In this document: positions 4,548-53,445 of the stretch, piece by piece
How positions within the stretch are numbered: the first letter of the stretch is position 1
Layout of the letters: every line of letters starts with the position of its first letter
Source: a virus
Direction: 5' to 3' (one strand)
Length of the DNA stretch: 64,000 bases
Virus record (IMG/VR): IMGVR_UViG_3300023178_000019
Coordinates: 34,564-98,563 of that record
Notes under the pieces: generated by a model
The model's input: the letters and a program-made list of their open reading frames with translations, nothing else
Told to the model about the DNA's origin: nothing
The model's database searches: none
Program-made: the position numbers and the translations under genes

Positions 4548-5297
4548 TTAGCCGATTGTAAATCCGTAACCTACGCCACCAGCAACTTGCTGAATTACAT
4601 CTTGCTCTAGTTTTTCCATTTCTTGCATTGCTTCATTTTTAAGATCATTACCATTAAGGGTTGACCCACCTTGTGGTCCTGCAATAGTAGCAAACTTTGA
4701 ACGTGCTTCGCCTAACATATATTTACAGTTTGCCAAAGTATAATCTTTAATCCACTGCTTTGCTAGATAATCATCAAGTAGTTGCTCGTCTGGACGATAA
4801 TTGTACGCCATGAGCATTAGTGTTTCGTCTGTTCTCGGACGCTGTAATAATGTAAGTTTATGTGTTGTAGGATTCCATTTGAATTCGATGAACGATCCAA
4901 ACATACGTCCTACAAGTTCTTGGTATTGGCTAAACAAATCATATGTTGCTAGTCCTCCCATATTAGATGAACTTAACAGATATGTGTTAGTGTACGCAAG
5001 GTTAAATGGTTCAAACAAAGTGCCGCCGTCTCCGCCGCCTGTTCTTGATCCAATTGATCTACGAAAGATTCTTCGAACTTCAATAACTTCGTTTGGAAGT
5101 GTGTATTCATTTGTATCTTCCATAGTTTCCATAAACAAATACGATTCTTCTACACTGTTATCTGAACGCTGTCTAAATTTAGTTAATGATTTAACTAAAG
5201 CAGTTTCATAATGGATAGGATCTAGTTCGACATCGACCATGCCGCCGCCTAGCATTGCGTGGACGTAGTCAAATATTTCTTGTTTTTGTGTAGCCAT
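4548..5297 (-). CDS. 13: Neck protein gp13
   Basis: 249 residues, homologue of the T4 head-completion/neck protein that joins portal and tail. Diagnostic stretches are the N-terminal motif VDVELDPIHYETALVKSL (T4: INVELTPDQIYDCI) and the C-terminal region WIKDYTLANCKYMLGEAR, followed by GGSTLNGNDLKNEA and a Gly-rich end GVGYGFTIG (T4: a VKDYATALAK helix, GGVTIDGQRLIEEA and a PPFGILVG end). It is shorter than T4 gp13 (309). It is transcribed away from gp14, its partner in the neck, from a shared divergent promoter region, although in T4 the two genes lie in tandem. The start has GGAG 11-12 nt upstream. Confidence 0.8.
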   Translation of the reverse strand: MATQKQEIFDYVHAMLGGGMVDVELDPIHYETALVKSLTKFRQRSDNSVEESYLFMETMEDTNEYTLPNEVIEVRRIFRRSIGSRTGGGDGGTLFEPFNLAYTNTYLLSSSNMGGLATYDLFSQYQELVGRMFGSFIEFKWNPTTHKLTLLQRPRTDETLMLMAYNYRPDEQLLDDYLAKQWIKDYTLANCKYMLGEARSKFATIAGPQGGSTLNGNDLKNEAMQEMEKLEQDVIQQVAGGVGYGFTIG

Positions 5298-51278: not shown

Positions 51279-51668
51279 TTAGATTGCAGTTAATACTAGT
51301 ACGTTTGCTGTTGAATCGTCAGTAACAGTCCATGTATAACGATTGTTATTAAAATCAAACATTGTACGGTTGTGTACTTTACGAATGTTTACAGCACTTT
51401 CTCCGGCTACAAAACCTTGTAGAACCATTTCGTTAGCTGCTAGTGATCCAATTGCTTTGTCAACTAGTGTACATACACCTGTGTTACCTGATGTTCCATC
51501 TGGATCATCGTGACAGTTAAATTTTGTTTCTGAGCGTTGTGATAAAATTACACCGTTGCCAACTGCTGCGTTAGCACCAATTTTACACATTACTGTTAGG
51601 TTATTACCTTCAGTACCTGCTGAACCTTCAGTAGCACCAAAGTATCTTTTGTTTAATGGGCGTCCCAT
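51279..51668 (-). CDS. Abundant-type virion protein next to gp23, unknown
   Basis: 129 residues beginning MGRPLNKRYFGATEGSAGTE. Ala/Gly/Asn-rich beta protein with VGNGVILSQRSETKFNC and a C-terminal MFDFNNNRYTWTVTDDS. Two Cys only. No known domain. A late promoter, a structured leader, AAAGGAG upstream of the ATG and a terminator directly downstream make it a separate, strongly expressed unit, as expected for a high-copy head or tail decoration protein. That role is inferred from expression signals and position. Confidence 0.65.
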   Translation of the reverse strand: MGRPLNKRYFGATEGSAGTEGNNLTVMCKIGANAAVGNGVILSQRSETKFNCHDDPDGTSGNTGVCTLVDKAIGSLAANEMVLQGFVAGESAVNIRKVHNRTMFDFNNNRYTWTVTDDSTANVLVLTAI

Positions 51669-51689
51669 AATTATCTCCTTTGTTTAATC

Positions 51690-51758
51690 ATTGCCGTTCT
51701 AGGGTCTACGCGGTGAGTTTCCGCATAAGTCCTCAATAGAGGCTCCTATATGACAATA
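51690..51758 (-). promoter_or_regulatory. Structured three-way-junction leader of the 129-residue gene
   Basis: On the minus strand: a closing helix TAGG/CCTA (possibly extended by ATTG/CAAT if transcription starts early enough), hairpin CCTC-TATT-GAGG and a 7-bp hairpin TATGCGG/CCGCGTA with loop AAACTCA. It begins right at the predicted late transcript 5' end. Not a known riboswitch to me; perhaps a stability or translation element. Confidence 0.5.
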
Positions 51759-51768
51759 GTATTTATCC
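51759..51768 (-). promoter_or_regulatory. Late promoter for the 129-residue gene
   Basis: The minus strand reads GGATAAATAC, about 6 bp after the terminator T-run of the upstream ncRNA and about 90 bp before the ATG at 51668. Confidence 0.65.
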
Positions 51769-51773
51769 AAAGA

Positions 51774-51800
51774 GAAAAAAGCCCGCACAGTGGCGGGCTC
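51774..51800 (-). terminator. Intrinsic terminator of the ncRNA
   Basis: GC-rich stem AGCCCGC/GCGGGCT with a 6-nt loop, followed on the minus strand by six T. It is oriented to end the transcript coming from the sigma70-like promoter at 52027-52056. Confidence 0.85.
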
Positions 51801-52020
51801 TAAGAATAAGCAAAATAGGTAGGACTCGGTTACACCTACAAGCCGCGGACCAAATACCATTTCATCTCCGCAACAACCTGCTTCCGCTCGGTAGAGCGAT
51901 GTGACACTGCCTGTTTCCAGTACAACGCCTGGGTACCACCCCTAAGCAGTCAAGTTCGACGCTCTGGTAAACGCCTCTTCCTTGCACTATAAACATTGAC
52001 TAGCTAAGTCTTTGTTGCTT
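51774..52020 (-). ncRNA. Candidate independent structured ncRNA, about 240 nt
   Basis: The stretch has no ORF on either strand worth calling but is GC-richer than its surroundings and lies between a sigma70-like promoter and an intrinsic terminator on the minus strand. Internal complementarity is dense: AGAGCG with CGCTCT, CTGCTT with AAGCAG, CCAG with CTGG, CGCTC/GAGCG hairpin, GCGGA with TCCGC, and GTAGG with CCTAC near the 3' end. I compared it by eye with tmRNA (no tag ORF, no T-arm/CCA), RNase P, SRP and 6S RNA and found no convincing match. It could be a phage regulatory RNA or RNA with a structural or sponge role. Confidence 0.6.
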
Positions 52021-52038
52021 ATGTTATTAATATAACAT
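52021..52038. repeat. Inverted repeat at the ncRNA promoter -10 region
   Basis: ATGTTAT-TAAT-ATAACAT: two perfect 7-bp arms around a 4-bp centre, overlapping the -10 of the ncRNA promoter. It may be an operator or a 5' hairpin of the transcript. Confidence 0.5.
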
Positions 52039-52056
52039 CTTTATAGTAAAAGTCAA
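52027..52056 (-). promoter_or_regulatory. Sigma70-type promoter of the ncRNA
   Basis: On the minus strand TTGACT (52056-52051) is followed by TATATT with a 16-bp spacer or TATTAA with an 18-bp spacer. Unlike nearby structural genes it has no TAAATA late motif, suggesting early or constitutive transcription by host RNA polymerase. Confidence 0.6.
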
Positions 52057-52138: not shown

Positions 52139-52210
52139 ATGTGGACAAAACCTAGCTATACTGAAATGCGTTTTGGCTTTGAAGTTACAATGTATGTAAT
52201 GAACAAGTAA
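52139..52210 (+). CDS. pqqA: PqqA-like peptide, precursor of pyrroloquinoline quinone
   Basis: 23-codon gene. The peptide starts MWTKPSYTEMRFG and continues FEVTMYVMNK. Proteobacterial PqqA has the pattern MW.KPa..dlR.G.EVT.Y....r. Both residues that become PQQ are present with the correct spacing: Glu15 and Tyr19 in E-V-T-M-Y. PqqD presents the peptide to the radical-SAM enzyme PqqE, which cross-links Glu and Tyr before PqqF/G cleavage and PqqB/PqqC maturation. None of these enzymes is in the window, so the host would supply them. The gene has its own strong ribosome binding site, stop and bidirectional terminator and lies antisense between gp23 and the ncRNA. Confidence 0.85.
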   Translation: MWTKPSYTEMRFGFEVTMYVMNK

Positions 52211-52224
52211 AAATGTAGTCAAAA

Positions 52225-52258
52225 AAATAGGCCCCGTAGGGCCTATTTCTAGTTTTTT
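52225..52258. terminator. Bidirectional terminator between pqqA and gp23
   Basis: Perfect 10-bp stem AAATAGGCCC/GGGCCTATTT with a CGTA loop. Plus-strand reading is followed by TCTAGTTTTTT (ends pqqA); minus-strand reading by TTTT (ends gp23). Confidence 0.88.
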
Positions 52259-52269
52259 ACAACTATAAC

Positions 52270-53445
52270 TTAGCTAAATGTTACGCCTGCGGCGATATCA
52301 ACTTTACCTAAGTAGTCAGCTGCGTTACCTAGTGATGACGCAGTGTTTGTAAGCTCAACATAACCATAACGTGTCATAAATGATACTGTTGGTTCGAATG
52401 TTGATGGATCTAGTACAACACCTGAGCTCATTAGTGGGATATATGGGCAGTAGAACGCTGCTGCGTCTGACTCGCTTGATCCTTTATAACCAATAAGAAC
52501 TGGTGCAGTATCTGATGCATATGTGTTAACATATACTTTCATTGCGTTGTTCAATGTACCAACCATTTTTGTGTTAGTTGGTGCTTCGAATGTACCTTCT
52601 GTTGTACGAGCGAACGCTGAAGTAGTTGCTGACTGTAGGATTGTTAGCGCGAATGGGCTAACAACTGCCCAGTTACCAGCACCACGTCTTGTACGCTGTG
52701 CAATCAAGTTTGATACTCTGTTGATTTGAACTGCTAGTGCAGCATGTTCGTCACCAACAAAAGTAGCTGTACCTGAAACGGCTGTTTGATCATAAGTTTC
52801 AGTAGCAGCGCCTGCTAGTGAACTTAGTGAGCCTAGTACTTCTTGGTCGATTTCAGCAGTAATCTCTTGAGCAAGTGCTGCCATGATTTCTGCTTCAACG
52901 TCAATACCGTGCTGTGATTGAGCATCTTGTGCCGCTTCGAATGTCCAGCGAGCTGATAGCTTTCTGGTTTTCGCTTCGACAGTTTGTTTCAAGATTTGGA
53001 TTGACATTCTGTTACCAGCCTGTCCTTCAAGTGCTGCTGTTGCCGCTGCGCGGTCAGTTGCTGCATCACCTGAATATCCTTCTGCAATCTTGAACGGTGA
53101 TAGTGCTTCTTCACCAGCAGTAGCTGAAGTGCCACCTGTGCTAGTAAAGTCGTCGCTATAACGTACTCTTAGTGTGTGGATTTGACCCACTGGACCTGTC
53201 ATTGGCTGAACACCAACCAACTCGTTTGCAATAACGGTTGGCATAACACGTCTGATAACTGGTAGGATAACTCTGTTTAGAGTTGCTACATTACCGGCAG
53301 AAGTTGCACCAGCTGTTGCTGATTCTGAAAGATACTTACGAGTATTTTCTAGAGTCGCTTCCATAACAGCTTTCTTGTTGCCTTTTAGGCCTTCAACAAG
53401 TGCAGTCTTAGTGTCCTGCCAGCGACTTTCTAATAGTTCTGACAT
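52270..53445 (-). CDS. 23: Major capsid protein gp23
   Basis: 391 residues, T4-type HK97-fold capsid protein. Conserved segments: NRVILPVIRRVMPTVIANEL, VGVQPMTGPVGQIHTLRVRY, RKLSARWTFEAAQDAQSQHG, VSPFALTILQSA, VLIGYKGSSESDAAAFYCPY and SFMTRYGYVELTNTASSLGN. T4 gp23 is 521 residues, so this is a compact form lacking insertion-domain length. The prohead protease recognises L/I-x-E; LSE at 39-41 followed by SATAG is a good propeptide cleavage site. It ends at a strong bidirectional terminator. gp22 and gp21 precede it in the usual T4 order. Confidence 0.95.
   Translation of the reverse strand: MSELLESRWQDTKTALVEGLKGNKKAVMEATLENTRKYLSESATAGATSAGNVATLNRVILPVIRRVMPTVIANELVGVQPMTGPVGQIHTLRVRYSDDFTSTGGTSATAGEEALSPFKIAEGYSGDAATDRAAATAALEGQAGNRMSIQILKQTVEAKTRKLSARWTFEAAQDAQSQHGIDVEAEIMAALAQEITAEIDQEVLGSLSSLAGAATETYDQTAVSGTATFVGDEHAALAVQINRVSNLIAQRTRRGAGNWAVVSPFALTILQSATTSAFARTTEGTFEAPTNTKMVGTLNNAMKVYVNTYASDTAPVLIGYKGSSESDAAAFYCPYIPLMSSGVVLDPSTFEPTVSFMTRYGYVELTNTASSLGNAADYLGKVDIAAGVTFS

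Follow-up and report, generated by a model that had tools for sequence, protein, structure and literature searches.

Terminated riboswitch RNAs that act in trans are known from SreA and Rli55/EutX, in which termination is ligand-dependent. The manA RNA (RF01745) has counted as an orphan riboswitch candidate since 2010; its original description rates both its being an RNA and its cis-regulatory role as certain and a riboswitch function as probable, one of its pairings being labelled 'pseudoknot?' in a figure legend (Weinberg 2010, PMC2864571). The cis-regulatory label is repeated in later phage papers (PMC9964418, PMC12197685, PMC10665884). A companion orphan RNA of marine phages, wcaG (RF01761), was likewise proposed as cis-regulatory (PMC2864571). 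In isolates, manA lies after pstS (P-SSM4), between regA and purL (P-SSM2), before gp32 (P-HM2), after a ferredoxin gene (P-SSM7), before talC (P-RSM6), and before an opposite-strand gene (P-TIM68), while in MED4-213 and metaG-MbCM1 it immediately follows the capsid gene, there annotated as gp24. Intergenic reads were counted in a strand-specific RNA-seq study of P-HM2 on MED4, in whose passages covered here non-coding RNA is not mentioned (PMC5082946), and the open-licence PMC literature gave nothing of use on non-coding RNAs in cyanophage RNA-seq. No description of free-standing manA RNAs was recognised in the portions of that literature covered.

The DNA analysed here (the window) is a 64-kb stretch of IMGVR_UViG_3300023178_000019, a viral record of 98,563 bases that encodes a T4-type gp23. 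Between gp23 (53445-52270) and an ORF of 129 aa (51668-51279), both on the minus strand, lies a stretch without a conserved ORF, for which the initial annotation had proposed an independent structured RNA downstream of gp23, bounded by its own promoter and terminator. Both signals are indeed present on the minus strand, and gp23 precedes them on that strand, as the following features indicate:

52270..53445, minus strand: gp23, major capsid protein (PF07068, E 2.9e-99)
52225-52248: hairpin with T runs on both sides, which sets gp23 apart from the island
52139..52210, plus strand: pqqA, divergent from the RNA (Pfam PqqA, E 4.5e-12)
52029..52056, minus strand: sigma70-type promoter, TTGACT-16-TATATT with a TG-extended -10 (sequence scan; kept across relatives)
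51774..52022, minus strand: predicted transcript of ~249 nt, helix P1 through T run (extent deduced from terminator and promoter spacing)
52017..52022, minus strand: closing helix P1, 5' strand AUAAGC (folding; P1 covaries)
51809..52009, minus strand: manA RNA match, model positions 1-192 of 192 (49.8 bits, E 8.7e-12)
51806..51811, minus strand: closing helix P1, 3' strand GCUUAU (folding and covariation)
51778..51801, minus strand: intrinsic terminator, a GC-rich stem-loop followed by a T run (sequence scan; terminators stand here in relatives too)
51759..51767, minus strand: T4-late-type promoter motif GATAAATAC of the next gene, past the terminator (motif scan)
51666..51743, minus strand: freshwater-2 RNA motif (RF02980), leader of the next gene (45.3 bits, E 1.1e-5; gathering score 49.9)
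51279..51668, minus strand: next gene, 129 aa, MGRPLNKR-type (ORF)

The position of the RNA after the capsid gene is the one that manA occupies in MED4-213 and metaG-MbCM1. The MGRPLNKR-type product of the next gene had no match in Pfam or PHROG.

At gathering thresholds, Rfam recognised no family in the window. Permissive filters, applied to 611 bases, returned manA at 52009-51809, from the first to the last model position, with a score of 49.8 bits, the gathering score being 55.2; because the curated cut-off is missed, we file the RNA as a divergent branch of the manA family. The gathering score is reached by seven of 16 window-type records, Pelagibacter phage Mosig included, and the other nine fall below it, so that the Rfam cut-off conceals part of the window-type branch. 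Mosig (MT647606) is the nearest relative in the phage collection, with 77% identity over ~210-225 nt, and its manA scores 64 bits, above the cut-off; the promoter position is the same as in the window, whereas the Mosig RNA has no terminator and stands 24 nt before a rubrerythrin gene. In the reverse direction, a model (R1) built from 30 window-type sequences recovered 61 of 86 sources selected as carriers of canonical or isolate manA, every match spanning the full model; beyond these, in 647 kb it matched nothing besides the window itself (51992-51812, 193.1 bits), which is a member of its training set. Homology of the window RNA to manA is therefore supported by sequence searches in both directions. 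The initial annotation had seen in the RNA, by eye, no likeness to tRNA or tmRNA, with which ARAGORN agrees (0 genes in 64 kb, ruling out both), and had suggested that it may be undescribed; that part is refuted by the significant match to a known Rfam class (full model, E 8.7e-12), which lies under the gathering score and with which the reverse search agrees, and an undescribed RNA class was accordingly ruled out. For wcaG, a family separate from that of the window RNA, Rfam gave no match in the window at gathering thresholds or, on the 611 bases, under permissive filters.

The window RNA resembles canonical manA in its full-length match, its helices including P1b, its conserved joining segments, its occurrence in T4-like marine phages and the sigma70-type promoter directly upstream. 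It differs from canonical manA in its score below gathering, an extra outer helix (P1), a dedicated terminator and its separation from the next gene, and the last two make it unlike the 5' UTR element first described for manA. The RNA family is already known; what differs is the architecture, which looks like that of a stand-alone RNA gene with start and stop signals of its own, and not like a switch belonging to an adjacent gene.

Folding energy by itself is weak evidence of structure here (z -1.71; 13 of 200 shuffles fold as well). Covariation is strong: in an alignment of 36 sequences, non-redundant at 93%, a fold of 62 pairs has 96.6% of the cells in standard pairs and 44 pairs changed on both sides, and the covariation score is 0.511, whereas shuffles give 0.175 and slid versions 0.07-0.10, controls that flatter P1, P1b and pairs 80-154 and 169-180 because these were chosen after viewing the same alignment. 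The outer helix P1 alternates between UAAGC/GCUUA and AAUGC/GCAUU, while helix 12 is weak (83% paired). P1b (columns 40-43 with 216-219), two of whose four pairs covary, is the bracketed pairing of the Rfam manA consensus, with which the window-type fold agrees. This covarying fold and the lack of a conserved ORF bear out the structured non-coding unit that had been annotated, whose length comes to about 240-250 nt.

The relatives were collected by a core-pattern scan of viral contigs, which gave at least 119 loci; with the window and Mosig these make 121 matches (L001-L121), 117 of which look real. Four chance matches in coding sequence (L014, L026, L040, L057) and 26 loci without full context were left out, giving 91 full-context loci among the matches listed. 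A canonical manA pattern gave at least 120 matches, from which a motif filter removed 30 and missing context 12, leaving 78 loci with full context, 76 of them non-duplicate, again among the matches listed. Across 84,980 species (one genome each), the core pattern was found in two contigs of one Neomarinimicrobiota MAG and in one chance match; the MAG contigs (L122, L124) have window-like synteny and manA loci identical over the printed stretch, and probably represent phage DNA in the bin. Exactly one copy is present in 19 of 21 records, the exceptions being one MAG with two copies on two contigs and one record with none. The record of the window yielded no second copy, and 37 phage records, among them GenBank and RefSeq duplicates, have one manA place each.

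Taken by themselves, signal-like matches in the region are near chance in number (promoter-like, 6 versus a mean of 4.3 in shuffles; terminator-like, 4 versus a mean of 1.6). Their conservation, on the other hand, is not a matter of chance. A promoter with at least 10 of 12 matches stands at nearly one position, ending 38-47 nt before the core, in all 91 full-context loci listed versus 90 of 910 shuffles, and in 76 of the 78 canonical loci listed versus 31 of 780 shuffles; the search patterns did not include the promoter, and these counts are not independent because the loci are related. Only two TTGAC...TATA.T promoters lie outside ORFs in the 64-kb window, one of them before manA, and its spacing would place the transcription start at or beside the first helix. 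Taken singly, a promoter at this place would be compatible with a riboswitch too. Among the matches listed, a terminator stands 177-187 nt past the core in 43 of 72 unique contexts versus 44 of 720 shuffles, with none in the other 29.

We consider it fairly probable that the window carries a divergent, free-standing member of the manA family, transcribed by the host and insulated, which most likely acts in trans and probably does so early. The host RNA polymerase, carrying the housekeeping sigma factor (sigma70), would start at helix P1, and the RNA would fold into a closed multibranched structure in which P1 pairs both ends. The dedicated intrinsic terminator would then fix the 3' end, releasing an RNA of ~249 nt and insulating the next gene, which has a late-type promoter of its own; late transcription of the structural gene would start past the terminator. 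The mature RNA would most likely act in trans while folded, probably early in infection, with a protein or RNA of host or phage as its binding partner. The promoter, the terminator and the lack of a conserved ORF are those of a free-standing non-coding RNA, and the position is not that of a 5'-UTR cis-regulatory element, as the terminator, the late-type motif and freshwater-2 intervene before the ORF; single copy, exchangeable neighbours and insulation fit a trans-acting folded RNA. Family, fold, promoter and terminator are evident from the sequence, as are the separation of the unit from the next gene and its single copy in the record; its transcription, timing, stability and trans action we infer, as we do the regulatory role that had been suggested for it. 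As with SreA and Rli55/EutX, a riboswitch-like domain would be released as a short terminated RNA; unlike in those systems, termination here appears constitutive, and a second copy did not turn up in the record. If many copies of manA stand alone with constitutive terminators, a trans partner should be sought instead of a ligand and a target gene, an idea open to test in cultured phages with Pelagibacter (Mosig) or Prochlorococcus (MED4-213 or P-HM2) as host.

A terminator-like hairpin lies within 60 nt in 19 of the 76 canonical loci listed, and in four of the 76 tRNA-Asn is directly downstream. A conserved hairpin (CCTAAGATGCAACT...AGTsGGGCAGATGG), usually with T runs, stands directly 3' of manA in 24 canonical loci (including L134, L137, L139, L143, L147, L157, L164, L169 and L171) that overlap the group with terminator-like hairpins; the single Rfam match to it (E 4.9) was not useful. 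A broader alternative is that riboswitch candidate is the wrong label for manA as a whole and that the family consists of single-copy, early, stand-alone, trans-acting RNAs with varied 3' ends and a shared host machine. The 3' end would come from an intrinsic terminator, the conserved hairpin, the adjacent tRNA-Asn or the next mRNA, and the target machine would be common to hosts as unlike as cyanobacteria and Pelagibacter. We put this forward tentatively. The case for a free-standing RNA is stronger in the window and in relatives with a terminator than across the whole family, and a cis role is plausible for other, terminator-less members upstream of gp32 or rubrerythrin.

Another possibility, which we regard as unlikely for the window, is that manA is a cis leader acting on the translation or mRNA stability of the downstream gene, the window copy being leaky or secondary. 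The next gene in the 91 loci listed is MGRP-type in 25, gp32 in 19, absent or replaced by the contig end in eight, MSSHINPD-type in seven, rubrerythrin in five and something else in 27. Many terminator-less relatives lead straight into a same-strand gp32, rubrerythrin or other gene, with start codons soon after the RNA, and in P-HM2, likewise a leader-type context, manA (4794-4973) also precedes gp32; a leader function is plausible in the terminator-less relatives. Among leader-type relatives, sequestration of the ribosome-binding site by the 3' strand of P1b looked possible, by eye, in Mosig only. Against such a leader in the window stand the terminator, the late-type promoter and the separate freshwater-2 leader, all of them between the RNA and the ORF.

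Rather improbable, in our judgement, is an attenuating riboswitch in which manA is the aptamer and the terminator is the expression platform that controls read-through into the 129-aa gene. The earlier proposal of manA as a riboswitch candidate speaks for it, as does the place of the RNA at the 5' end of a transcript that may extend into a same-strand gene, but the terminators do not behave accordingly. There are 27 distinct 5' arms, some different in length alone, and RNAs 98-99.5% identical carry unrelated terminators (L024/L097, L081/L093, L010/L062, L100/L114). The terminator helix forms in 42 of 43 folded transcripts with a mean probability above 0.8, and the arms are about as complementary to the RNA body as shuffled arms (mean z -0.19 and -0.52), with z below -2 in two of 43 cases per arm. 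One of the two 3'-arm exceptions is that of the window, which pairs with the body somewhat better than shuffled arms (z -2.8) and so favours attenuation there; such exceptions aside, no competition of the terminator with the aptamer fold was found. The attenuator was set aside as first choice on these data of turnover, folding and complementarity. The layout is what one would expect of an insulated RNA gene, and not of an attenuator.

The next gene also appears to have a promoter motif of its own, which argues further against attenuation. ATAAATA is the core of the T4 late promoter. It occurs within 100 nt past the terminator in 32 of 43 contexts among the matches listed versus 30 of 860 shuffles, and in the window the late-type motif stands 99 nt ahead of the next ORF. 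The T4 late promoter is given as TATAAAT in PMC3037559. Certain next genes are, moreover, convergent with manA, a configuration at odds with read-through control and found in six of the 91 loci among the matches listed: a baseplate OB-domain protein in L061 and L119, a class II tRNA synthetase in L048, L049 and L063, where no terminator was recognised, and an ORF without family in L089. Opposite-strand ORFs in L010, L019, L024, L062 and L091, which are short or distant, were not counted as convergent.

Translation of a small ORF, for which the window offers a 44-codon frame starting with ATG, can be dismissed as extremely improbable and was rejected, as the ATG is present in only 12 of 36 relatives, the frame is stopped at differing places and the sequence changes track base pairing.

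The surroundings of manA hold further structured elements. Freshwater-2 (RF02980) scores above gathering in six of seven relatives scanned, and a glutamine riboswitch aptamer (RF01739) is found a few hundred nt 5' of manA in four of the seven (L019 1135-1182; L022 5003-5050; L060 7886-7933; L114 6504-6457), as well as upstream of manA in the canonical locus L143; the manA region looks like an island of structured RNAs. The open-licence PMC literature on freshwater-2 and on pqqA in phages gave nothing of use. The pqqA cassette of the gp23-manA interval varies in orientation among related loci: it and manA lie on opposite strands in L107, L031 and the window, and on the same strand in L101, L036, L083, L019 and others. 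The RNA of L077 appears mosaic in alignment A2, with a 5' half close to L082 and a 3' half close to L049/L066, and looks as if it had recombined within the RNA. A tmRNA lies ~3 kb upstream of manA in Mosig (L002 587-925) and in L048 (2332-2666).
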